Of a stretch of DNA of 64,000 nt, positions 3,578 to 64,000 are shown one piece after another. Source of the DNA: Lamellibrachia columna. Its lineage: Eukaryota; Annelida; Polychaeta; Sabellida; Siboglinidae. How positions within the stretch are numbered: position 1 is the first letter of the stretch; each line of letters begins with the position of its first letter. Under the pieces are notes generated by a model. It did not search any database and was not told the origin of the DNA. It saw only the letters and a list, made by a program, of their open reading frames with translations. The DNA is taken from assembly GCA_963662155.1 (NCBI GenBank), contig OY759261.1, positions 71,392,669 to 71,456,668 of the forward strand, read 5' to 3'. The translations under genes were made by a program, and so were the position numbers.

Positions 3578-3868
3578 AAAGAAATCGTGAGGCAGGGATT
3601 GGATACAAAGCACTCATGCAGACCAAATGATAATGAAAGTAGGAGCCTACAAACCTCCTGAGATAGTGACAATGTTGTGCAACAGTTTTACTAAACATAG
3701 CTGAACTGAGTTTAGGTAACTATGATTTATTCCATAACATTGATAAAAAAGGAACACGAGTTTGTATATATACTCACAAAACACTGAACACAACACCCTA
3801 TCCTTGGAGTCCAACTTTCAAGAATCAGTATGGGTTGAGACCAAATTAAACAGAAAAGATACTCTTCT

Positions 3869-6800
3869 GATAAGATGTGTGCATAGAAGCCCAGGGAGCT
3901 CTGGCAGGATGTGTATATAGAAGCTCAGGGAGCTCTGATAGGATGTGTGTGTATAGAAGCCCAGGGAGCTCTGATAGGATGTGTATATAGAAGCCCAGGG
4001 AGCTCTGATAGGATGTGTGTATAGAAGCCCAGGGAGCTCTGGCAGGATGTGTATATAGAAGCTCAGGGAGCTCTGATAGGATGTGTGTATAGAAGCCCAG
4101 GGAGCTCTGATAGGATGTATATATAGAAGCCCAGGGAGCTCTGATAGGATGTGTGTATAGAATCCCAGGGAGCTCTGATAGGATGTGTATATAGAAGCTC
4201 AGGGAGCTCTGGCAGGATGTGTATATAGAAGCCCGGGAAGCTCTGGCAGGATGTGTATATAGAAGCCCAGGGAGCTCTGATAGCATGTGTGTATAGAAGC
4301 CCAGGGAGCTCTGATAGGATGTGTATATAGAAGCCCAGGGAGCTCTGATAGGATGTGTATATAGAAGCCCAGGGAGCACTGGCAGGATGTGTATATAGAA
4401 GCCCAGGGAGCTCTGATAGGATGTGTGTATAGAAGCCCAGGGAGCTCTGATAGGATGTGTATATAGAAGCCCAGGGAGCTCTGATAGGATGTGTATATAG
4501 AAGCCCAGGGAGCTCTGGCAGGATATGTATATAGAAGCCCAGGGAGCTCTGGCAGGATGTGTGTATAGAAGCCCAGGGAGCTCTGGCAGGATGTGTATAT
4601 AGAAGCCCAGGGAGCTCTGATAGGATGTGTGTATAGAAGCCCAGGGAGCTCTGATAGGATGTGTATATAGAAGCCCAGGGAGCTCTGGCAGGATGTGTAT
4701 ATAGAAGCCCAGGGAGCTCTGATAGGATGTGTGTATAGAAGCCCAGGGAGCTCTGATAGGATGTGTATATAGAAGCCCAGGGAGCTCTGGCAGGATGTGT
4801 ATATAGAAGCCCAGGGAGCTCTGGCAGGATGTGTGTATAGAAGCCCAGGGAGCTCTGATAGGATGTGTATATAGAAGCCCAGGGAGCTCTGATAGGATGT
4901 GTGTATAGAAGCCCAGGGAGCTCTGGCAGGATGTGTGTATAGAAGCCCAGGGAGCTCTGGCAGGATGTGTATATAGAAGCCCAGGGAGCTCTGATAGGAT
5001 GTGTGTATAGAAGCCCAGGGAGCTCTGATAGGATGTGTATATAGAAGCCCAGGGAGCTCTGGCAGGATGTGTATATAGAAGCCCAGGGAGCTCTGATAGA
5101 ATGTGTATATAGAAGCCCAGGGAGCTCTGGCAGGATATGTATATAGAAGCCCAGGGAGCTCTGGCAGGATGTGTGTATAGAAGCCCAGGGAGCTCTGGCA
5201 GGATGTGTATATAGAAGCCCAGGGAGCTCTGATAGGATGTGTGTATAGAAGCCCAGGGAGCTCTGATAGGATGTGAATATAGAAGCCCAGGGAGCTCTGG
5301 CAGGATGTGTATATAGAAGCCCAGGGAGCTCTGATAGGATGTGTGTATAGAAGCCCAGGGAGCTCTGATAGGATGTGTATATAGAAGCCCAGGGAGCTCT
5401 GATAGGATGTGTGTATAGAAGCCCAGGGAGCTCTGGCAGGATGTGTATATAGAAGCCCAGGGAGCTCTGGCAGGATGTATATATAGAAGCCCAGGGAGCT
5501 CTGATAGGATGTGTGTATAGAAGCCCAGGGAGCTCTGGCAGGATGTGTATATAGAAGCCCAGGGAGCTCTGGCAGGATGTGTGCATAGAAGCCCAGGGAG
5601 CTCTGGCAGGATGTGTGTATAGAAGCCCAGGGAGCTCTGATAGGATGTGTGTATAGAAGCCCAGGGAGCTCTGATAGGATGTGTATATAGAAGCCCAGGG
5701 AGCTCTGATAGGATGTGTGTGTATAGAAGCCCAGGGAGCTCTGGCAGGATGTGTATATAGAAGCCCAGGGAGCTCTGGCAGGATGTGTATATAAAAGCCC
5801 AGGGAGCTCTGATAGGATGTGTGTATAGAAGCCCAGGGAGCTCTGGCAGGATGTGTATATAGAAGCCCAGGGAGCTCTGGCAGGATGTGTGTATAGAAGC
5901 CCAGGGAGCTCTGGCAGGATGTGTGTATAGAAGCCCAGGGAGCTCTGATAGGATGTGTGTATAGAAGCCCAGGGAGCTCTGGCAGGATGTGTGTATAGAA
6001 GCCCAGGGAGCTCTGATAGGATGTGTGTATAGAAGCCCAGGGAGCTCTGGCAGGATGTGTGTATAGAAGCACAGGGAGCTCTGGCAGGATGTGTATATAG
6101 AAGCCCAGGGAGCTCTGATAGGATGTGTGTATAGAAGCCCAGGGAGCTCTGGCAGGATGTGTATATAGAAGCCCAGGGAGCTCTGATAGGATGTGTGTAT
6201 AGAAGCCCAGGGAGCTCTGGCAGAATGTGTATATAGAAGCCCAGGGAGCTCGGGCAGGATGTGTATATAGAAGCCCAGGGAGCTCTGATAGGATGTGTAT
6301 ATAGAAGCCCAGGGAGCTCTGATAGGATGTGTGTATAGAAGCCCAGGGAGCACTGGCAGGATGTGTGTATAGAAGCCCAGGGAGCTCTGATAGGATGTGT
6401 GTATAGAAGCCCAGGGAGCTCTGGCAGGATGTGTGTATAGAAGCCCAGGGAGCTCTGGCAGGATGTGTATATAGAAGCCCAGGGAGCTCTGATAGGATGT
6501 GTGTATAGAAGCCCAGGGAGCTCTGGCAGGAGGTGTGTGTAGAAGCCCAGGGAGCTCTGGCAGGATGTGTATATAGAAGCCCAGGGAGCTCTGATAGGAT
6601 GTGTGTATAGAAGCCCAGGGAGCTCTGGCAGGATGTGTATATAGAAGCCCTGGGAGCTCTGGCAGGATGTGTATACAGAAGCCCAGGGAGCTCTGATAGG
6701 ATGTGTATATAGAAGCCCAGGGAGCTCTGATAGGATGTGTATATAGAAGCCCAGGGAGCTCTGATAGGATGTGTATATAGAAGCCCAGGGAGCTCTGATA

Positions 6801-7071
6801 GGATGTGTGTATAGAAGCCCAGTGAGCTCTGATAGGATGTGTGTATAGAAGCCCAGGGAGCTCTGGCAGGATGTGTATATAGAAGCCCAGGGAGCTCTGA
6901 TAGGATGTGTATATAGAAGCCCAGGGAGCTCTGGCAGGATGTGTATATAGAAGCCCAGGGAGCTCTGATAGGATGTGTGTATAGTAGCCCAGGGAGCTCT
7001 GGCAGGATGTGTATATAGAAGCCCAGGGAGCTCTGATAGGATGTGTGTATAGAAGCCCAGGGAGCTCTGGC
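3869..7071. repeat. 34-bp minisatellite, about 94 copies
   Basis: The unit is a 34-base block with the core GAAGCCCAGGGAGCTCTG followed by either ATAGGATGTGTGTAT or GCAGGATGTGTATAT; these two variants intermix along the whole array. Read on the plus strand the unit spells I-G-C-V-Y-R-S-P-G-S-S, the endonuclease motif of the surrounding LINE. Because 34 is not a multiple of three, the plus frame is destroyed. On the minus strand each frame cycles through all three phases and meets no stop, which creates open frames of over 1000 codons that are not genes. Confidence 0.97.
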
Positions 7072-7407
7072 ACCAACAATGATCATGTAAATAAATTGAT
7101 TAGCGAGCCAATATACTATAAACACTCAAATTTTCTCTTGCTTGGAAATTTTAATTATCCCAATATAGACTGGCAAAACTGTTGTACACTCTCAGATAGT
7201 GCTAATAGCCCAGACTCTAAATTTAAAGAAGGTATAAGAGATGATTTTCTTTTCCAACACATTATACTCCCCACAAGGGGGCAATTAGGAAATAAATCAA
7301 ACACTCTTGATTTAGTATTAGCCAATGAAAAAGGTATGGTGGATGACATAATGTATGAAAACCCACTTGGTAAGAGTGATCACTATTGTTATGATAGCAC
7401 AACATAA
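7072..7407 (+). pseudogene. LINE endonuclease, C-terminal half
   Basis: Continues directly out of the minisatellite in frame. It has the LLLGNFNYPNIDW block (the G-D-F-N catalytic motif with D changed to N), FLFQHIILPTRG, NTLDLVLANE and GKSDHYCYD, the usual order for the apurinic-like endonuclease (EEP fold) of CR1/Jockey LINEs. The GDFN aspartate is missing here, so this copy would be inactive even without the array. Frame is lost after 7407. Confidence 0.85.
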
Positions 7408-7604
7408 GTTGAATTTTCTAGTGGTGTCCCATACACTGTGCATTTTAGTGGACGTTATCACTGTCTGTGCAGACGCCAGAGTGGTGTTTCAATGTATGTG
7501 CCATTAAGTTCTTTTCAAATCTGTCGTTATTGTTACATTTAGGTGTTATGCAGAAATAGCAAATCATACACTGCTTAAATATTATGACCAAGGGGATTAC
7601 AACC

Positions 7605-8990
7605 GTATGAAGGCTAAATTGGACCACGCAGACTGGGATGAGGTACTTGGCACTAGCACTATAAACAACCAATGGTTAGGTTTTAAAGAATATATTAAAG
7701 AGTATGAATTCATCCCTCATCAATTAGTGAGTAATAGTAACATACATAAAGGGAAAGTACCCCTAAACAAGGAATCAGTAAAGAAAATTAAGAAGAAATA
7801 AAGTTTGTAAACTAACAAGGATACAGAAAGAATTTGAGATGAAGCTAGCAACATAGGCTAAGTCGAACACTAAAGCATTATGGAAGTATATGAATTTTAA
7901 AACCAAGAATCGGGAAGGTGTTTCAGACCTGAACATAGATCCTAATGATTCTAAATCTAGACTTACAGATTCTGATAGGGAAAAGGCAGATGTCTTAGGA
8001 CACGTTTTTCAAGTGTTTTTACTATAGAGCTATATGGTACCATCCTTCATATTCCACGAGTGGAGTTAATACACAACATGGAAGCATTGGCTATTGATGA
8101 GGAAATGATTAAGAAAAACTTGATAATCTCAACATATGTAAATCAGTAGGACCAGATGGTGTTCACCCTAGGTTGTTAAAGAATTATCTAATCATTTATG
8201 TCTACCACTAGCTAGGCTATTTAATAATTCACTTGCTGCAAATGGATGGAAACAGGGAAGGATCTTGGCTATATTTAAGAAGGGTAGTCGAAAAAGCAGG
8301 AAATCATAGACCAGTCGCTCTGACAGGTATATTACGCAAATGCTTGGAGCTATTCAGTATGCAACAGTTTGGGTTTATTAAGGGTCGTTCTACGGTACTC
8401 CCAGTCCAACTGTTAAATGTTATGGACTCATGGATCAGAGCTTTAGAAATAATTTGGTGCGATTATACAAAGTTTTAGTTAGGAGTCATTTAGATTATGC
8501 AACATCTATAATGGTCCCCTTATAAACAGAAATATAAAGATGCCATAGAAAATGTGCAGAGACGTGCAACAAAGCAGCTTCCTGGGATGAATGATGTTAC
8601 TTACCAGGAGAGGCTTGAGAGATTGTAACTTCCCACACTTGCATATTAGGTGAACACGTGGTGATATGATTGAGGTTTATAAATTGTTTCAAGAGAAGTA
8701 TGACAGTGATGTTTCTAACATTGTCAAGCTGCACAAAGACAATGATACAAAGGAAGGAACAAAGGGTCATAGTTTGAAACTAGAAAAGAAAGCTTCTCAC
8801 CTAGACTCAGTCAGAGTTACACCGTACAAAATGACGGAATGATTTACTGGAAGTAGTTGTAACTGCCGCACCTGTCAACTCGTTTAAAAATGTCTAGATA
8901 AACACTGGAGTACTGAACAATTTCTCTACAACTACAAAGCCACCTTGCCAGGAAGTCGTAGAGCATTTCAAGGGAAAGTTGAATTTCTGA
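7605..8990 (+). pseudogene. LINE linker and reverse transcriptase remnants
   Basis: Fragments in shifting frames: a linker (DYNRMKAKLDHADWDEVL to about 7800), the N-terminal RT with a degraded SVGPDGVHPR-like block near 8150, NHRPVALTGILRKCLE and QQFGFIKGRST (8300-8400), then a jump to the C-terminal IENVQRRATKQLPGMND and RGDMIEVYKLFQ (8540-8700) and the 3' stretch with YNYKAT. The catalytic palm (FADD) is absent, so the RT suffered an internal deletion as well as several frameshifts. Confidence 0.8.
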
Positions 8991-9029
8991 CCACCGAGGC
9001 CACCGCCTACAGTCAAGTAAACCTAAGTA

Positions 9030-11150
9030 AGTAAGTAGTATTTCAGCAACATCAGTCGAACTGTCAGTGTGACAGTGTCAGTGTCAACTGAGTGCAGCGA
9101 AGTCGGAATTAGGTTAGTACTCACGCAGCAGGCATCACGAGGATCTACTCCCTTTTAAATTTGAGAGATGAAAACAGCACAGCCAAATTTATTGACAAGT
9201 ATATGACTAGAATGTTTACAAAAAGTGAAATAGGTTTTCATTTTGTATCTTCTGGGATTGGAAGCAAAGGCAGGTGAGGAAAATTCCAGGTTCGCCATAA
9301 TAGATACTATTATTTAGAATAAACCAATTATTATAAGTAAAACAAAAAGGGGTCAGTGACTCCTGTTAAGACAAATTTGTTGCTGTCAGTTAACTTTTTT
9401 CTATGTGCTACTTACTGCATGTGCTGATAAATGTGGGAATGGCACAAACAGTCTATTGGAAATAAACATTTGATTTGACATCAAATATTTTAAACTATAA
9501 AGTTACTTCTGAAATAATATTAAGAAAATGTTCTTGAAAAAGTGCTTTTATTTCCCCCCTTCTTCTTGAATGTTCTTGAATTTTACTTCATGCTTTCTGT
9601 ATCAACCTTGATTCAGTTAATCTCAGAGATAAATGAGAAGGGAAACGTGAGAAGGATTAAGCCAGGTGATAGAACTTAATATCTGCATTTATTGACTTGC
9701 AGATCTAATTACGCTTGTTTGCCAAGCACAATTTCCATTAAAAGCGCAGTCAACGCTTAAAAAAATTGACTTATTACTTAGATTACAGTTATGTATGCCT
9801 GACTTGAAATGCAAGTTCCATCATGATCACGATCTTACTTTTGTTATTTTATCTTGATTGAATTTTGAAGTTCAGTATTTGTTCAGTATTTGTTATTTTT
9901 ATAGTATACTTGCATTCGTAACTTTCTTATATAATGTTCAAATTTATAGCACTAATCTTTGGTGACAGTATAAGTATTGTAATTAGTAATCGACTTTTAG
10001 TAAACATAAGTTTTTAATTCAACTCCTTCCATTTCTAACACATGACTAGTTAGGACTACTTTATTTTGGCTAACTATTGTACATAATATATTCATGACTA
10101 TTAAATAATTACATAATGCCAAAGTATACTGCTTGTATAGTGATGTGAAATGATGTTGGAAATAAATATTTTTGATTGATTGATTGACTTTGGAAGTGGA
10201 TCGCGAATGAGTGAGCATGGTGATGAAGGTGTGCCATGTAAACGGTTTGGGATCGTGATCCAGCACAAATGCTAATGATGCTGACGTCCAGGGGTGGTCA
10301 ATATTTTATATTGTAATTTCGCAAATAAAAATATAATATACTGTTCTATCTAAAATACCTTTTGAAACTATTTTTGACTTTAAAAAAAAATTACTTTTAA
10401 ACAAATACTTTTCCTGACCTTTCAAAAACAATTCTTGCCAAATTTGACCTGTTCTATTTTAAAGTTACCTATATGATAATTATATATAATGGATGTGCGG
10501 ACATTTTAGGATATAATTTAAAATCTGGGAATCTGTAGAAGTCTCATTTCTTTCATGCGTCCTAATCTGGGATAGTTAACATTAATTTTTGTTTTATTTT
10601 GTACTTTTGCAAATAAGAAATAAAAAAATATATTTATGCAATAACCAACACAAGTCCGATGTAGTAGAGAATTGAAATGGGCCAAATGAATGACGTTTTT
10701 ATTGCAAAGTGGACTGCTTATCACGCAGCCACTTTGGGAAGAACATTAACAGGAATGTGAGCTCCTCAAAGCAAACCAGACAGGAACTGAACACATGTAC
10801 AGCCCCGTCCGGCAAGTTTCTCAGAGCCCATATTTAATTTTTTTATTTTATTAGTGAGTTAACTGGTACAGCAATGTGATGTATATGTAAAATAGACAAT
10901 AGAGAATTTACATCAGTATTATCTGCATGGACCATTCTCTGAAACCTAAATTTATTCCCTGAAAAAAGTACTTTCAAAATGCATTTTTATTTTAAATACA
11001 TTTTCAAAAGTATTTTAATTTAAAATACTTTTTTTGATGTACTTTTTATTTTAAATATTTTTCCAGTATTTTAACCATCCTTGCCAATGCCATTGTACAA
11101 CTATTTTTCAGATTGAACTATTAGCCAGTCCAATATCGAGTTGCTACAGA
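9030..11150. other. AT-rich intergenic or intronic sequence
   Basis: No family recognisable. A TTGATTGATTGATTGA run around 10170-10187 resembles a LINE/SINE 3' tail, but no body could be identified. Poly-A/T tracts near 10380 and 10850. Confidence 0.5.
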
Positions 11151-38220: not shown

Positions 38221-38231
38221 ATATATATATA

Positions 38232-38763
38232 GACAGCACCGTGTCTGTGGCCATGGTTTGAACAGTGGACAGCACCGTGTCTGTGGCCATGGTTTGAACA
38301 GTAGACAGCACCGTGTCTGTGGCCATGGTTTGAACAGTAGACAGCACCGTGTCTGTGGCCATGGTTTGAACAGTGGACAGCACCGTGTCTGTGGCCACGG
38401 TTTGAACAGTGGACAGCACTGTGTCTGTGGCCACGGTTTGAACAGTAGACAGCACCATGTCTGTGGCCACGGTTTGAACAGTAGACAGCACCGTGTCTGT
38501 GGCCATGGTTTGAACAGTAGACAGCACCATGTCTGTGGCCAAGGTTTGAACAGTAGACAGCACCGTGTCTGTGGCCAAGGTTTGAACAGTGGACAGCACC
38601 GTGTCTGTGGCCATGGTTTGAACAGTAGACAGCACCGTGTCTGTGGCCATGGTTTGAACAGTAGACAGCACCATGTCTGTGGCCAAGGTTTGAACAGTAG
38701 ACAGCACCGTGTCTGTGGCCATGGTTTGAACAGTAGACAGCACCGTGTCTGTGGCCATGGTTT
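38232..38763. repeat. 36-bp minisatellite, array A (about 15 copies)
   Basis: The unit has the core CAGCACCGTGTCTGTGGCCA followed by (T/C/A)GGTTTGAACAGT(G/A)GA. Because 36 is a multiple of three, several frames on both strands stay open; on the minus strand one reads TVLSTVQTMATD. The right edge abuts LINE-like minus-strand codons (see findings). Not a gene. Confidence 0.96.
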
Positions 38764-39028: not shown

Positions 39029-39380
39029 ACAGTAAATTACAGTTCATACAATTAGTACCGTAAATTACCGTTCCCATTAATAATAAATACAGTTCCCACA
39101 ATTAATACAATAAATTACGGTTCACACAATTAACACAGTAAATTACAGTTCCCACAATTAATACAGTAAATTACAGTTCAAACAATTAATACAGTAAATT
39201 ACAGTTCACACAATTAATACAGTAAATTACAGTTCCCATAATTAACACAGTAAATTACAGTTCCCACAATTAATACAGTAAATTACAGTTCAAACAATTA
39301 ATACAGTAAATTTCAGTTCAAACAATTAATACAGTAAATTACAGTTCCCACAATTAATACAGTAAATTACAGTTCACACA
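39029..39380. repeat. 28-bp minisatellite, copy 1
   Basis: About 12 units of CAATTAATACAGTAAATTAC plus AGTTC(C/A)CA, AT-rich. Copied with the larger duplication to 43422-43773. Confidence 0.93.
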
Positions 39381-40197
39381 AGTTGCAACAAGAGTCATGT
39401 TTTTTGAGAGTACAGCTGTACAATGGAACTTGGCATCTCAAGTTTTAATGTGACTACATTCTGTTGGCACTCTAGTACTTGACATCAAATAGGGTTTGAG
39501 ATGCACTCTGAGTCTGCCTTGTGGCAGTCACTGTTTCTTAACTCTCAATATTCATGTCTGGCCATGCAGTGCAACGGTTCTAGCTGCTTGCTTGTATAGA
39601 GAGATATAACAAACTACTTTAAAGCAATTATTTTTGTGTGCATTATTCCGTTGTGAATTTTATAAATGCTGGAAGAAAAAATCGCACAAAAAAGGAATTA
39701 GTAAAAATCACAGCAAAATTATCATTGCAATTTTTTTATTACAACTTTTATCTGTCATTTCTATTAAATAAAAAAATACTTGAAATTGAAATGAACCAAT
39801 GATTGGAGAATACAGGCGTAATACAAGTTTCTTTTAACAACCAGGAAGTAGTGAAAGAAAAGCCAGTACATGTATTAAATACTACATGGCATAATACTAA
39901 GTATACTCAATGGCAGTTACGTTGGAACTCAGTTGTTTCCAGAGGCATTTATTGTGTCCTTGTTTCAGCAATAGCACAGAAACATTGATACTGTCAGAAT
40001 AACAGTGTATAATTTTATGCTCAACTTGCATGGAAAATGTCACCTATACAGCCATTATTGTGCAAAACCAATCCACCACTTCTACTTCCTGTATGCTCAG
40101 AGCTGTGGACCAACAACGTACATGTGTTGATTTACCTTCTGATTAATTATATTGAAGGGAAATACAAAATGTCAACTTTAACATAAATATAACTAAC

Positions 40198-40688: not shown

Positions 40689-43156
40689 ACATCATGTCTG
40701 TAGCCATGGCTTGAACAGTGGACAGCACTGTGTCTGTGGCCACGGCTTGAACAGTGGACAGCACTGTGTCTGTAGCCATGGATTGAACAGTGGACAGCAC
40801 TGTGCCTGTGGCCATGGCTTGAACAGTGGACAGCACTGTGTCTGTGGCCATGGTTTGAACAGTGGACAGCACTGCGTCTGTGGCCACGGTTTGAACAGTG
40901 GACAGCACTGCGTCTGTGGCCACGGTTTGAACAGTGGACAGCACTGTGTCTGTGGCCACGGTTTGAACAGTGGACAGCACTGTGTCTGTGGTCACGGTTT
41001 GAACAGTGGACAGCACTGTGTCTGTGGCCACAGTTTGAACAGTGGACAGCACTGCGTCTGTGGCCACGGTTTGAACAGTGGACAGCACTGTCTGTGGCCA
41101 CGGTTTGAACAGTGGACAGCACTGCGTCTGTGGCCACGGTTTGAACAGTGGACAGCACTGTGCCTGTGGACACGGTTTGAACAGTGGACAGCACTGTCTG
41201 TGGTCATGGTTTGAACAGTGGACAGCACTGTGTCTGTGGTCACAGTTTGCACAGTGGACAGCACTGTCTGTGGTCACAGTTTGGACAGTGGACAACACTG
41301 TGTCTGTGGTCACGGTTTGAACAGTGGACAACACTGTGTCTGTGGCCACGGTTTGAACAGTGGACAGCACTGTGTGTGTGGCCAAGGTTTGAACAGTGGA
41401 AAGCACTGTCTGTGGTCACGGTTTGAACAGTGGACAGCACCGTGTCTGCGGCCATGGTTTGAACAGTGGACAGCACCGTGTCTGCATGTGGCCATGGTTT
41501 GAACAGTAGACAGCACTGTGGCTGTGGCCATGGTTTGAACAGTGGACAGCACCGTGTCTGTGGCCAAGGTTTGAACAGTGGACAGCACCGTGTCTGTGGC
41601 CATGGTTTGAACAGTGGACAGCACCGTGTCTGTGGCCATGGTTTGAACAGTGGACAGCACTGTGTCTGTGGCCATGGTTTGAACAGTGGACAGCACCGTG
41701 TCTGTGGCCATGGTTTGAACAGTGGACAGCACCGTGTCTGTGGCCATGGTTTGAACAGTGGACAGCACCGTGTCTGTGGCCAAGGTTTGAACAGTGGACA
41801 GCACCGTGTCTGTGGCCATGGTTTGAACAGTGGACAGCACCGTGTCTGTGGCCAAGGTTTGAACAGTGGACAGCACCGTGTCTGTGGCCACGGTTTGAAC
41901 AGTAGACAGCACCGTGTCTGTGGCCATGGTTTGAACAGTAGACAGCACCGTGTCTGTGGCCATGGTTTGAACAGTAGACAGCACCGTGTCTGTGGCCATG
42001 GTTTGAACAGTGGACAGCACCGTGTCTGTGGCCATGGTTTGAACAGTGGACAGCACCGTGTCTGTGGCCATGGTTTGAACAGTGGACAGCACCGTGTCTG
42101 TGGCCATGGTTTGAACAGTGGACAGCACCGTGTCTGTGGCCAAGGTTTGAACAGTGGACAGCACCGTGTCTGTGGCCATGGTTTGAACAGTAGACAGCAC
42201 CGTGTCTGTGGCCATGGTTTGAACAGTGGACAGCACCGTGTCTGTGGCCATGGTTTGAACAGTGGACAGCACCGTGTCTGTGGCCATGGTTTGAACAGTG
42301 GACAGCACCGTGTCTGTGGCCAAGGTTTGAACAGTGGACAGCACCGTGTCTGTGGCCATGGTTTGAACAGTAGACAGCACCGTGTCTGTGGCCATGGTTT
42401 GAACAGTAGACAGCACCGTGTCTGTGGCCATGGTTTGAACAGTGGACAGCACCGTGTCTGTGGCCATGGTTTGAACAGTAGACAGCACCGTGTCTGTGGC
42501 CATGGTTTGAACAGTGGACAGCACCGTGTCTGTGGCCATGGTTTGAACAGTAGACAGCACCGTGTCTGTGGCCATGGTTTGAACAGTAGACAGCACCGTG
42601 TCTGTGGCCATGGTTTGAACAGTAGACAGCACCGTGTCTGTGGCCATGGTTTGAACAGTGGACAGCACCGTGTCTGTGGCCATGGTTTGAACAGTAGACA
42701 GCACCATGTCTGTGGCCATGGTTTGAACAGTGGACAGCACCGTGTCTGTGGCCAAGGTTTGAACAGTGGACAGCACCGTGTCTGTGGCCATGGTTTGAAC
42801 AGTAGACAGCACCGTGTCTGTGGCCATGGTTTGAACAGTAGACAGCACCGTGTCTGTGGCCACGGTTTGAACAGTGGACAGCACCGTGTCTGTGGCCACG
42901 GTTTGAACAGTAGACAGCACCATGTCTGTGGCCATGGTTTGAATAGTAGACAGCACCGTGTCTGTGGCCATGGTTTGAACAGTAGACAGCACCATGTCTG
43001 TGGCCAAGGTTTGAACAGTAGACAGCACCGTGTCTGTGGCCATGGTTTGAACAGTAGACAGCACCATGTCTGTGTCCAAGGTTTGAACAGTAGACAGCAC
43101 CGTGTCTGTGGCCATGGTTTGAACAGTAGACAGCACCGTGTCTGTGGCCATGGTTT
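40689..43156. repeat. 36-bp minisatellite, array B (about 68 copies)
   Basis: Same unit as array A. The left third (40689-41420) is an older subfamily with CACTGTG and several shortened units. The right two thirds (41430-43156) is a homogeneous subfamily with CACCGTG, closest to array A. The long frames in five registers are by-products of the period. Confidence 0.96.
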
Positions 43157-43421: not shown

Positions 43422-43773
43422 ACAGTAAATTACAGTTCATACAATTAGTACCGTAAATTACCGTTCCCATTAATAATAAATACAGTTCCCACAATTAATA
43501 CAATAAATTACGGTTCACACAATTAACACAGTAAATTACAGTTCCCACAATTAATACAGTAAATTACAGTTCAAACAATTAATACAGTAAATTACAGTTC
43601 ACACAATTAATACAGTAAATTACAGTTCCCATAATTAACACAGTAAATTACAGTTCCCACAATTAATACAGTAAATTACAGTTCAAACAATTAATACAGT
43701 AAATTACAGTTCAAACAATTAATACAGTAAATTACAGTTCCCACAATTAATACAGTAAATTACAGTTCACACA
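43422..43773. repeat. 28-bp minisatellite, copy 2
   Basis: Copy of 39029-39380 with the same unit order and almost no changes. Confidence 0.93.
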
Positions 43774-44590
43774 AGTTGCAACAAGAGTCATGTTTTTTGA
43801 GAGTACAGCTGTACAATGGAACTTGGCATCTCAAGTTTTAATGTGACTACATTCTGTTGGCACTCTAGTACTTGACATCAAATAGGGTTTGAGATGCACT
43901 CTGAGTCTGCCTTGTGGCAGTCACTGTTTCTTAACTCTCAATATTCATGTCTGGCCATGCAGTGCAACGGTTCTAGCTGCTTGCTTGTATAGAGAGATAT
44001 AACAAACTACTTTAAAGCAATTATTTTTGTGTGCATTATTCCGTTGTGAATTTTATAAATGCTGGAAGAAAAAATCGCACAAAAAAGGAATTAGTAAAAA
44101 TCACAGCAAAATTATCATTGCAATTTTTTTATTACAACTTTTATCTGTCATTTCTATTAAATAAAAAAATACTTGAAATTGAAATGAACCAATGATTGGA
44201 GAATTCAGGCGTAATACAAGTTTCTTTTAACAACCAGGAAGTAGTAAAAGAAAAGCCAGTACATGTATTAAATACTACACGGCATAATACTAAGTATACT
44301 CAATGGCAGTTACGTTGGAACTCAGTTGTTTCCAGAGGCATTTATTGTGTCCTTGTTTCAGCAATAGCACAGAAACATTGATACTGTCAGAATAACAGTG
44401 TATAATTTTATGCTCAACTTGCATGGAAAATGTTACCTATACAGCCATTATTGTGCAAAACCAATCCACCACTTCTACTTCCTGTATGCTCAGAGCTGTG
44501 GACCAACAACGTACATGTGTTGATTTACCTTCTGATTAATTATATTGAAGGGAAATACAAAATGTCAACTTTAACATAAATATAACTAAC

Positions 44591-48350: not shown

Positions 48351-48706
48351 AGCACAACATGTGACTGATGAGGTTCAGGTGGCACAACAAACACAACATG
48401 TGACTGATGAGGTTCAGGTGGCACAACAAACACAACATGTGACTGATGAGGTTCAGGTGGCACAACAAACACAACATGTGACTGATGAAGTTCAGGTGGC
48501 ACAACAAACACAACATGTGACTGATGAGGTTCGGGTGGCACAACAAACACAACATATGACTGATGAGGTTCGGGTGGCACAACAAACACAACATGTGACT
48601 GATGAGGTTCGGGTGGCACAACAAACACAACATGTGACTGATGAGGTTCGGGTGGCACAACAAACACAACATGTGACTGATGAGGTTCGGGTGGCACAAC
48701 AAACAC
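48351..48706 (+). repeat. 39-bp in-frame minisatellite in LINE ORF1
   Basis: Nine units of 39 bases encoding VTDEV(Q/R)VAQQTQH in one open frame that continues into LINE sequence on the right. Units 1-4 have CAGGTGG and units 5-9 CGGGTGG, so the array grew by block duplication. Confidence 0.96.
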
Positions 48707-48754
48707 AAGTTGGACCAAGCACAGCACGACCTGCACCAATTATGAACACAATTA

Positions 48755-49306
48755 ATAGTATGTACACAAATGCTGACTCACTTATGAATAAACAGTATGA
48801 ATTAAAAGCACAAGTTACACAATCACAACCAATGGTTATAGGAATCACACGTGAAACCAAAGAAATGTAGGTTCAACATAGTACCATGTGAACTTCAACT
48901 AGAAGGATATGAATTATTCTCAAATTTGGAGAAAAACGGGAGGGGAATATGCCTGTATATTCACAGGTCACTTAAACCTACCGAGTGTACCATAAATGAT
49001 GCTGCAACATTTGAAGAGTGTGTTTGGGCAGAGGTACGACTAGCTGGAAAAGATAAGATACTCATTGGGTGCATATACCATACCCCAAACAGCAGTGATA
49101 CCAATAATGAGAAGTTATGCAAACTAATAGGCAAGGTAAATGAGGCAAATACCTCTCACATCCTAATGATGGGAGATTTTAACTATCCACACATTAACTG
49201 GGTGGATGATTCAAAGATCTGTCAGAGAGCAAGCAGAACAGAAACTCAGTTCTTAGAAAGCATTAGAGATACATTTCTTATACAACATATCATGGAACCA
49301 ACATGA
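48755..49306 (+). pseudogene. LINE ORF2 endonuclease domain
   Basis: Starts INSMYTNADSLMNKQYEL, then after a frameshift ELQLEGYELFSNLEKNGRG, ICLYIHRSLKPTE, ATFEECVWAEVRL, KDKILIGCIYHTPNSSDTNN and the catalytic LMMGDFNYPHINW. The frame ends in MEPT; the L-D-L-I-F block follows near 49330 in another frame. The GCIYHTPNSS stretch is the ancestor-type sequence of the 34-bp minisatellite unit at 3.9-7.1 kb. Confidence 0.9.
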
Positions 49307-50568: not shown

Positions 50569-50960
50569 ATACTTGCATGACATTTTTATCTTATCACACG
50601 ATATGTTTAATCATGACTTATATGAAGACGCATGGGGTCATTCTCTAAAGCTGTTCAAGGACCGGAGTAAACGGGAAGTAAGGGGGAGTAACGGGAAGTA
50701 AGGGGAAGTAACGGGAATTAGGGGAAGTAACGGGAAGTAAGGGGAAGTAATGGGAAGTAAGGGGGAGTAACGGGAAGTAAGGGGGCACTTTTTTAGCCAG
50801 AGAATCGTTAATCTATGGAATTCACTTCCGGACACCGCCATCACAGCACCATCAATAAATACGCTTAAAAATAAACTTAACAAATACTGGCTAAACCAGA
50901 CAGTCAAATATGACTACAAAGCCAAACTAAGGCAAGCTAAGAGCGGTACATAGGCAGATT
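50569..50960 (+). pseudogene. LINE ORF2 C-terminus with 20-bp minisatellite
   Basis: HDMFNHDLYEDAWGHSLKLF leads to KDRSKREVR, then the 20-bp array, then HFFSQRIVNLWNSLPDTAIT and YKAKLRQAKSGT with a stop near 50952. Removing the array restores an uninterrupted alignment with LINE C-termini. Confidence 0.85.
50668..50787. repeat. 20-bp minisatellite in LINE ORF2
   Basis: About six units of CGGGAAGTAAGGGGAAGTAA, each two 10-base halves. The first and last units still read as the LINE codons R-E-V-R. Confidence 0.93.
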
Positions 50961-62029: not shown

Positions 62030-62450
62030 GAAGGACAGTCATATTTAGATTTGACACAGTACCTTGGCTTGATTCAACATGTAGAAACAGCTACACACAA
62101 TGGAAATGTGCTAGATCTTGTTCTGACAACCCTAAACTTAGCGAGAAATGTGCATGTAACATAATCATTTGGCTCAAGTGACCACAACATAGTAGAGTTT
62201 ATGATGGTCTGTAGGACTGAATACACTGATTGGAAAAATGAATAGTATGGTCATAGTATTCATTTTTCCAATCAGTGTATTCAGAAACAGTGACTATGTA
62301 GGCATGAAGGAATATCTACAAAATAGATTTGTGACAAATTGACCTCCGGAATAAATTACGCGGAGAGAAAATTGTTCAACAGAAGAAGCATGGTCAATAC
62401 TGAAAACTTCTATAGAGGAGGCAGTGAGTAAGTTTGTACCACAGAAAGTG
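62030..62450 (+). pseudogene. CR1-like LINE endonuclease C-terminus
   Basis: Plus-strand frame with QYLGLIQHVETATHNGNVLD, LVLTTLNLA and, after one stop, FGSSDHNIVEFMM (the S-D-H catalytic block). After a foldback segment it continues with YVGMKEYLQNRF and SKFVPQKVRRKRSNKPLWW, which flows into the 54-bp array in the same frame. Confidence 0.85.
62218..62283. repeat. perfect 27-bp inverted repeat with 12-base loop
   Basis: 62218-62244 (TGAATACACTGATTGGAAAA plus seven bases) is the exact reverse complement of 62257-62283. It interrupts the LINE endonuclease-linker codons just after EYTDWKN. Confidence 0.97.
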
Positions 62451-64000
62451 AGGAGGAAGAGAAGCAACAAGCCACTATGGTGGACCAAGGAGATCTACAG
62501 AGCCAGGAGGAAGAGAAGCAACAAGCCACTATGGTGGAACAAGGAGATCTACAGAGCCAGGAGGAAGAGAAGCAACAAGCCACTATGGTGGAACAAGGAG
62601 ATCTACAGAGCCAGGACGAAGAGAAGCAACAAGCCACTATGGTGGAACAAGGAGATCTACAGAGCCAGGAGGAAGAGAAGCAACAAGCCACTATGGTGGA
62701 ACAAGGAGATCTACAGAGTCAGGAGGAAGAGAAGCAACAAGCCACTATGGTGGAACAAGGAGATCTACAGAGCCAGGAGGAAGAGAAGCACCAAGCCACT
62801 ATGGTGGAACAAGGAGATCTACAGAGCCAGGAGGAAGAGAAGCAACAAGCCACTATGGTGGAACAAGGAGATCTACAGAGCCAGGAGGAAGAGAAGCAAC
62901 AAGCCACTATGGTGGAACAAGGAGATCTACAGAGCCAGGAGGAAGAGAAGCAACAAGCCACTATGGTGGAACAAGGAGATCTACAGAGCCAGGAGGAAGA
63001 GAAGCACCAAGCCACTATGGTGGAACAAGGAGATCTACAGAGACAGGAGGAAGAGAAGCACCAAGCCACTATGGTGGAACAAGGAGATCTAGAGCCAGGA
63101 GGAAGAGAAGCAACAAGCCACTATGGTGGAACAAGGAGATCTACAGAGTCAGGAAGAATAGAAGAACAAGCCACTATGGTGGAACAAGGAGATATACAGA
63201 GCCAGGAGGAAGAGAAGCAACAAGCCACTATGGTGGAACAAGGAGATCTACAGAGCCAGGAGGAAGAGAAGCAACAAGCCACTATGGTGGAACAAGGAGA
63301 TCTACAGAGTCAGGAAGAAGAGAAGAACAAGCCACTATGGTGGAACAAGGAGATATACAGAGCCAGGAGGAAGAGAAGAACAAGCCACTATGGTGGAACA
63401 AGGAGATCTACAGAGCCAGGAGGAAGAGAAGCAACAAGCCACTATGGTGGAACAAGGAGATCTACAGAGCCAGGAGGAAGAGAAGCAACAAGCCACTATG
63501 GTGGAACAAGGAGATCTACAGAGCCAGGAGGAAGAGAAGCAACAAGCCACTATGGTGGAACAAGGAGATCTACAGAGCCAGGAAGAAGAGAAGCAACAAG
63601 CCACTATGGTGGAACAAGGAGATCTACAGAGCCAGGAGGAAGAGAAGCAACAAGCCACTATGGTGGAACAAGGAGATCTACAGAGCCAGGAAGAAGAGAA
63701 GCAACAAGCCACTATGGTGGAACAAGGAGATCTACAGAGCCAGGAGGAAGAGAAGCAACAAGCCACTATGGTGGAACAAGGAGATCTACAGAGCCAGGAA
63801 GAAGAGAAGCAACAAGCCACTATGGTGGAACAAGGAGATCTACAGAGCCAGGAGGAAGAGAAGCGACAAGCCACTATGGTGGAACAAGGAGATATACAGA
63901 GCCAGGAGGAAGAGAAGCAACAAGCCACTATGGTGGAACAAGGAGATCTACAGAGCCAGGAAGAAGAGAAGCAACAAGCCACTATGGTGGAACAAGGAGA
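62451..64000 (+). repeat. 54-bp minisatellite in LINE linker, at least 28 copies
   Basis: The unit encodes 18 residues, RRKRSNKPLWWNKEIYRA, in the LINE frame. That frame stays open to about 63092, where a 2-base loss shifts it; a few later units have small deletions. Variants include CACCAAGCC for CAACAAGCC and GACGAAG or GAAGAAG for GAGGAAG. The array runs past the end of the window. Confidence 0.97.

Follow-up and report, generated by a model that had tools for sequence, protein, structure and literature searches.

The window analysed here is a stretch of 64,000 nucleotides of the annelid Lamellibrachia columna (C1:71392669-71456668, in a genome of 880 Mb assembled in 30 contigs). It contains a 34-bp minisatellite that lies inside the endonuclease (EN) codons of a decayed long interspersed nuclear element (LINE), as well as a second LINE at 49 kb whose EN is uninterrupted and served as the reference. 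The two TCTG boundaries listed below were read directly in the nucleotide sequence.

3689..3865, plus strand: left LINE flank, N-terminal half of EN, decayed with frame changes (clean codons at 3813-3865)
3866..3869, plus strand: left TCTG word, the start of the first unit
3866..7069, plus strand: 34-bp minisatellite, 94.1 units, consensus TCTGATAGGATGTGTATATAGAAGCCCAGGGAGC, unit variants GAT/GGC and A/G
7066..7072, plus strand: right TCTGGCA boundary with the second TCTG word, where the last unit is partial
7073..7404, plus strand: right LINE flank, remainder of the EN domain (PF14529)
7520..9030, plus strand: the LINE resumed in pieces, a part between EN and reverse transcriptase (RT) and an RT part, both decayed (matches to the copies L039, L050, L053 and others)
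48869..49303, plus strand: EN of the 49-kb LINE, uninterrupted reference

Tandem Repeats Finder, run on the window, delimited the array at 3866-7069 with a period of 34, 94.1 copies and 92% matches, in agreement with the approximately 94 copies described in the initial annotation. Cutting of the array at a fixed anchor resulted in 94 anchors separated by 34 bp in 91 of 93 intervals and by 36 bp in the other two. EN codons had also been described as running up to the first unit and from the last unit into the rest of the domain, and both junctions bear this out. The left-side codons (NFQESVWVETKLNRKDTLLIRCVHRSPGSSG, 3813-3905) and the right-side codons (LIGCVYRSPGSSGTNNDHVNKL..., 7033-7404) were compared one-to-one by BLASTP with the EN of the 49-kb LINE (48869-49303): 14 of 29 residues are identical in the left flank (E 8e-10) and 36 of 81 in the right one (E 2e-24). 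In Pfam the right flank corresponds to PF14529 (Exo_endo_phos_2; E 5.9e-8), as does the EN of the 49-kb LINE (E 5.7e-7); the search with the 31-aa left piece alone gave no significant match (best E 0.1, to an unrelated family). Being joined without the array, the flanks align to the 49-kb EN with 42 of 98 residues identical and no gap (E 4e-29), which rules out an independent satellite merely resembling EN. Together with the relatives that hold one unit, this alignment places many copies of the unit exactly where one belongs, as was originally claimed.

The unit had been read as I-G-C-V-Y-R-S-P-G-S-S. This peptide is indeed found, but in one of the three frames only; the two others do not give it, and stops are met in all three frames of the repeated unit. 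These stops, together with a unit length (34) that is not divisible by 3, make a coding function of the array unlikely. The host copy itself is decayed, since the EN similarity to the left of the clean codons goes on, from about 3703, in a different frame. The left flank (3689..3865) is ~80-84% identical in DNA to other copies of this LINE; on the right side DNA similarity to the other fetched copies ends at 7384, and ~135 bp at 7385-7519 interrupt the host copy past EN. A sister copy (L039) has both LINE domains, PF14529 (6.6e-12) and PF00078 (2.1e-37). CR1, the clade named in the initial annotation, is a candidate affiliation. The protein search with RT resulted in 5751 relatives, and among the 120 listed one was named for a species, Pinctada imbricata. 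Two weak immunoglobulin matches obtained in a PDB search were taken as spurious, and that search gave nothing useful otherwise.

With the right flank as query, a first look yielded 292 candidates, 40 of which were scored and 30 fetched, one of the latter being the window itself. Among the 29 non-window loci (L038-L066), 23 form a young subfamily with 90.8-98.4% identity among the six members placed in the tree, and each of the 23 has a single unit between the same flanks. The small young-type pieces L078, L079, L080 and L085 have no array; the unit of L079 is cut short. The remaining six loci (L048, L049, L050, L051, L053 and L065) belong to an older group that is star-like, its members being 82-89% alike in the data used for the tree. 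Further older copies were obtained from unit and junction searches, a minority of the 55 places given by one of these searches being fetched. Altogether one unit is present in eight loci of the older group: L049 (C6), L050 (C12), L068 (C10:2.22M), L071 (C4:50.8M), L072 (C5), the near-identical pair L081 and L083 (C8), and L084 (C10:16.98M).

Some of these copies have other internal repeats near the start of EN, namely 29 bp x 7.9 in L068 and 18 bp x 2.2 in L071. The 29-bp units (L068, 1757-1984) are identical, largely palindromic and derived from LINE codons near MVIGIT; this repeat might have begun as a foldback rather than by simple slippage.

At the same codons, eight loci of the older group carry arrays: 2 units at C4:11.69M (L077), 5 at C10:29.36M (L053), 13 at C10:24.44M (L034), 18 at C8 (L048), 31 at C13 (L036), 62 at C10:25.47M (L035), 77 at C11 (L082+L086), and at the C1 locus 94 in the window with 45 + 45 in local copies. 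The initial annotation had asked whether other copies of this LINE carry one, two or many units, and all of these states were found. The ratio of eight array loci to eight single-copy older loci is not a frequency, because the sample is biased by the queries used. LINE sequence is recognised on both sides of the array at seven of the eight loci. Both junctions are intact in the window and at C10:25.47M, C10:29.36M and C4:11.69M, and the flanking LINE is partly deleted at C10:24.44M (left side), C13 (where the left side is seen by short matches only) and C11.

The 45-unit copies, each with the left half of the LINE, lie immediately upstream of the window and represent a local triplication of the C1 locus with periods of 6787 and 6813 bp. 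The two copies do not differ from each other in the order or the sequence of their units. Their first 44 units correspond to units 1-45 of the window, apart from the loss of one unit and a change in another; beyond this point they exit the array. A 73-bp satellite (TTATATTCCCTCACTGCAGGGG...) at L031 1-1773 and past each 45-unit array in L031/L032 takes part in this 6.8-kb triplication, and the junction fuses it to the 34-bp array.

The unit was searched for genome-wide as a pattern with up to 3 mismatches. There are 344 forward and 21 reverse matches, and chance matching is excluded because the unit read backwards gave none. Followed locus by locus, the forward matches all belong to LINE-attached arrays (272 in the fetched loci and 72 at C11), as do 19 of the 21 reverse ones; no free 34-bp array without LINE was present among these traced matches, which is what the initial annotation had proposed to look for. 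The 365 matches in 880 Mb, in short dispersed arrays, stay below the genome share of a classical satellite. The single-copy relatives, the ladder from 1 to 94 units at the same codons and the lack of a LINE-free array among the traced matches support the direction from LINE codons to satellite, so that the idea of a satellite grown from transposon coding sequence was well founded. The reverse direction, the capture of a pre-existing 34-bp satellite by the LINE, is extremely improbable. Nothing was found in its favour beyond the general observation that satellites and LINEs may intermingle, whereas the unit encodes the very EN segment expected at that spot, and the single-copy relatives, having exactly one unit, already contradict capture, as does the tracing of the matches. 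We consider it hardly more credible that the array is an artefact of assembly. Long arrays are hard to assemble, and the two 45-unit copies coincide in both order and sequence of units; however, there are eight loci with 2 to 94 units, with differing flanks and differing unit variants, and the units inside the arrays are not identical.

The time of the first duplication can be estimated from the units themselves. A recent birth from a decayed copy would put the private changes of that copy in nearly all units. The units were taken from each array by cyclic alignment, and one outgroup row of the tree (L054) was placed by BLAST. Among the single-copy older copies, the majority unit matches the array consensus U exactly. 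In six loci there are no changes common to at least 80% of the units, as compared with 16.9 expected if the arrays had just formed; for arrays of halfway age 8.4 shared changes would be expected on average against the 0 observed (P 2e-4). With C11 included (two near-fixed changes, mean branch length assumed) the values are 2 observed and 9.8 expected (P 3e-3). Below the 80% cut, C8 has one change in 67% of units and C13 one in 52%. The ratio of mean unit divergence to flank divergence is 0.63 to 1.07 in the six loci. Exchange among the units of an array should raise the number of shared changes. Because the units share almost no private changes, the first duplication appears to be approximately as old as the LINE insertions. 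The initial annotation regarded the locus as the birth of a satellite caught with both breakpoints preserved. The breakpoints are preserved here, but it is not a single event caught in the act, because eight loci have arrays and the first duplication, judged by unit divergence, appears to go back to roughly when the LINE copies inserted.

The single-copy LINE holds TCTG twice, 34 bp apart, and the array unit is exactly the TCTG-to-TCTG interval. Most probably, the 34-bp EN stretch, present once in the relatives, was amplified to 94 copies by slippage or template switching at TCTG with subsequent slippage and unequal exchange. Slipped pairing or template switching between the two TCTG words would duplicate the 34-bp stretch at or close to the insertion of the LINE copies, and later growth would occur by further slippage, unequal exchange or gene conversion. 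The participation of TCTG itself is suggested rather than established, because the word is only 4 bp long and a random junction in the LINE has at least 4 shared bases in 2.6% of trials. At C1, 44 of the 94 units have GGC, the right-boundary form, and most others have GAT, the left-boundary form, which suggests that exchange there involved the interval at both of its ends.

A number of points weigh against this reading. The TCTG word is below the direct repeats of 5-10 bp in the slippage model as outlined in PMC6947457, with the chance level per junction given above, and the single-copy element L081 has TTCT at the offset instead of TCTG. No arrays occur in the 23 young copies despite the same TCTG pair, which is not predicted by slippage alone, and in the human survey summarised in PMC3389668 tandem repeats are likelier to come from younger transposable elements (TEs). 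The C11 array exits into the RT part with no EN to its right, and at C8 the LINE was looked for on the left of the array and none was recognisable. Assignment of L077 and L081-L084 to the older group was made by eye from shared letters and not by a tree. As for the dating, the C1 and C11 arrays have a homogenised look, so that the age of their units may differ from the age at which the arrays were born, and the branch lengths of the flanks were taken from a star-like, weakly supported tree. Two of the 21 reverse matches are unplaced, and free arrays more diverged than the 3-mismatch pattern allows would escape it.

The case is not unique in the window, as two other LINEs also carry arrays derived from their codons. 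The three LINEs are taken as different families on the basis of their differing sequences.

48353..48708, plus strand: 39-bp in-frame minisatellite TQHVTDEVRVAQQ, 9.1 units, just upstream of the EN of the 49-kb LINE
62355..62450, plus strand: left LINE flank of the 54-bp array, codons between EN and RT
62451..64000, continuing to 64861, plus strand: 54-bp in-frame minisatellite RRKRSNKPLWWNKEIYRA, ~45 units, with LINE codons on both sides

In the search with the left flank of the 54-bp array, 40 of 88 candidates were scored, and at least 19 of these 40 (window included) show more 54-bp units downstream. Eight small pieces of its relatives comprise five single-copy ones, one with 5 units, one with at least 7 and one, on C9, in a 36-bp register. 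In the C9 relative the repeated interval lies in the same codons but is another one, 36 bp long, and this points to an independent start. The 54-bp unit in a single-copy relative has AGGA at both ends, and the 36-bp register has AG only. Many of the scored copies are clustered on C8 at ~52-59 Mb, near the contig end, several of them with equal scores, which suggests local duplication besides retrotransposition. For the 39-bp array, 40 places were scored and the upstream part of eight was fetched; all eight have at most 2 units. Two more sets of repeats were observed in the window. A 10/20-bp repeat (GGGAAGTAAG) occupies 50664-50785, in the apparent C-terminal tail codons of a LINE RT. Arrays of 36 bp (38230-38763 and 40695-43156) and of 28 bp (39029-39381 and 43422-43774) are each present in two places with their order retained, which looks like a duplication of the block holding both.

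The origin of the eight array loci was considered in two ways. The tree is star-like, and the approximately unbiased (AU) test rejects neither a clade of arrays nor the best tree, in which such a clade is absent. It is possible, though rather doubtful, that there was one founder: a single source copy or its RNA would have given rise to the array, which was subsequently retrotransposed in trans to ~8 loci as a mobile minisatellite. G15 is found in 6 of the 7 larger arrays as compared with 1 of the 8 single-copy older elements, and G15C16 in 5 of 7 as compared with 0 of 8 (L072 is deleted there). Dating of the duplication to about the time of insertion agrees with one founder as well, and a single clade is not rejected either for the six tested array loci (AU p 0.19) or for the five without C8 (AU p 0.48). 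However, positions 15-18 also vary otherwise (G15G17 in 4 of 7 arrays), so recurrent mutation is possible at these sites of the unit. C8 is without G15 and has its own A20 variant, and the best tree intermixes array and single-copy loci. Moreover, because stops occur in every unit frame, an array-bearing LINE would be unlikely to make the whole product of its second open reading frame (ORF2) and would have to move in trans, so the array-bearing RNA would need help.

We lean slightly, as a tentative preference, towards several separate births of the array at a fragile site in one group of LINEs, either upon insertion or shortly afterwards; the slippage may possibly be that of the LINE RT itself. 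Intermixing of array and single-copy loci in the star-like tree is consistent with such births. The GGC class of units is confined to C1 among the 7 arrays, other stretches of the LINE were amplified separately in L068 and L071, and 36-bp and 54-bp registers exist over the same codons of another LINE. The G15 and G15C16 variants common to the arrays speak against independent births, as do the young copies, which lack arrays although they have the same TCTG pair. The lack of arrays in the young copies, and the human survey with its excess of repeats from younger TEs, also tell against a single founder. In a more general form, retrotransposition would seed minisatellites, the 34-bp duplication being made in reverse transcription or carried in the LINE RNA, with several LINEs and unit sizes involved. 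We regard this as conceivable but questionable; if true, a LINE subfamily lays ready-made coding-derived minisatellites at its insertion sites.

Studies of how minisatellites begin are hampered by the loss, in most cases, of the original state. In this LINE the one-unit original, a two-unit form and arrays reaching 94 units are all still found at the same codons in sister copies, and the comparison of unit divergence with flank divergence lets the first duplication be dated. Since two more LINEs have coding-derived arrays as well as relatives with one or two units, the rules of initiation (word length, spacing, timing and frame) could become measurable in one genome. Among the literature matches listed, as titles and beginnings of abstracts, there is neither a report of this 34-bp array nor a side-by-side, dated series of one-unit, two-unit and many-unit forms at the same LINE codons.

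The array has the features of a TE-derived minisatellite: its unit falls within 10-100 bp and shares homology with a TE whose relatives hold it once, and TE sequence lies on both sides of the array. This kind is already known, because TE-derived minisatellites, Alu cases and ORF2-derived satellites have been published; the present case is unusually complete. As far as the cited sources describe the known systems, the following comparison can be made. In a published model, slippage between short direct repeats starts minisatellites (Haber and Louis 1998; Taylor and Breden 2000, via PMC6947457 and PMC3389668), and our array resembles such cases in the terminal partial unit and the later expansion, and perhaps in a short direct repeat bounding the unit. 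It differs from them in that the direct repeat is 4 bp and that the starting state and many steps are readable at sister loci. TEs give rise to 23% of human minisatellites and satellites (Ahmed and Liang 2012, PMC3389668). Amplification of a TE segment in place, here perhaps between short direct repeats, is shared with Alu-derived and other TE-derived minisatellites (Jurka and Gentles, as cited in PMC3389668); unlike those, the present array consists of LINE endonuclease codons and forms a 1-to-94 ladder at one site, with no arrays in the 23 young copies. In oyster, Helentrons carry satellite-like arrays (PMC7492417), which are likewise tandem arrays dispersed with a mobile element; the carrier there is a DNA element, in contrast to the LINE here, for which joint dispersal with the array is only a possibility. 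Further known cases are PROsat of Phodopus, Pvc 20 of seal and chicken HinfI from CR1 (PMC9659126), tandem repeats that also originate from LINE ORF2. Those are listed there as satellite DNAs, whereas the 34-bp unit described here is still in place in its LINE.

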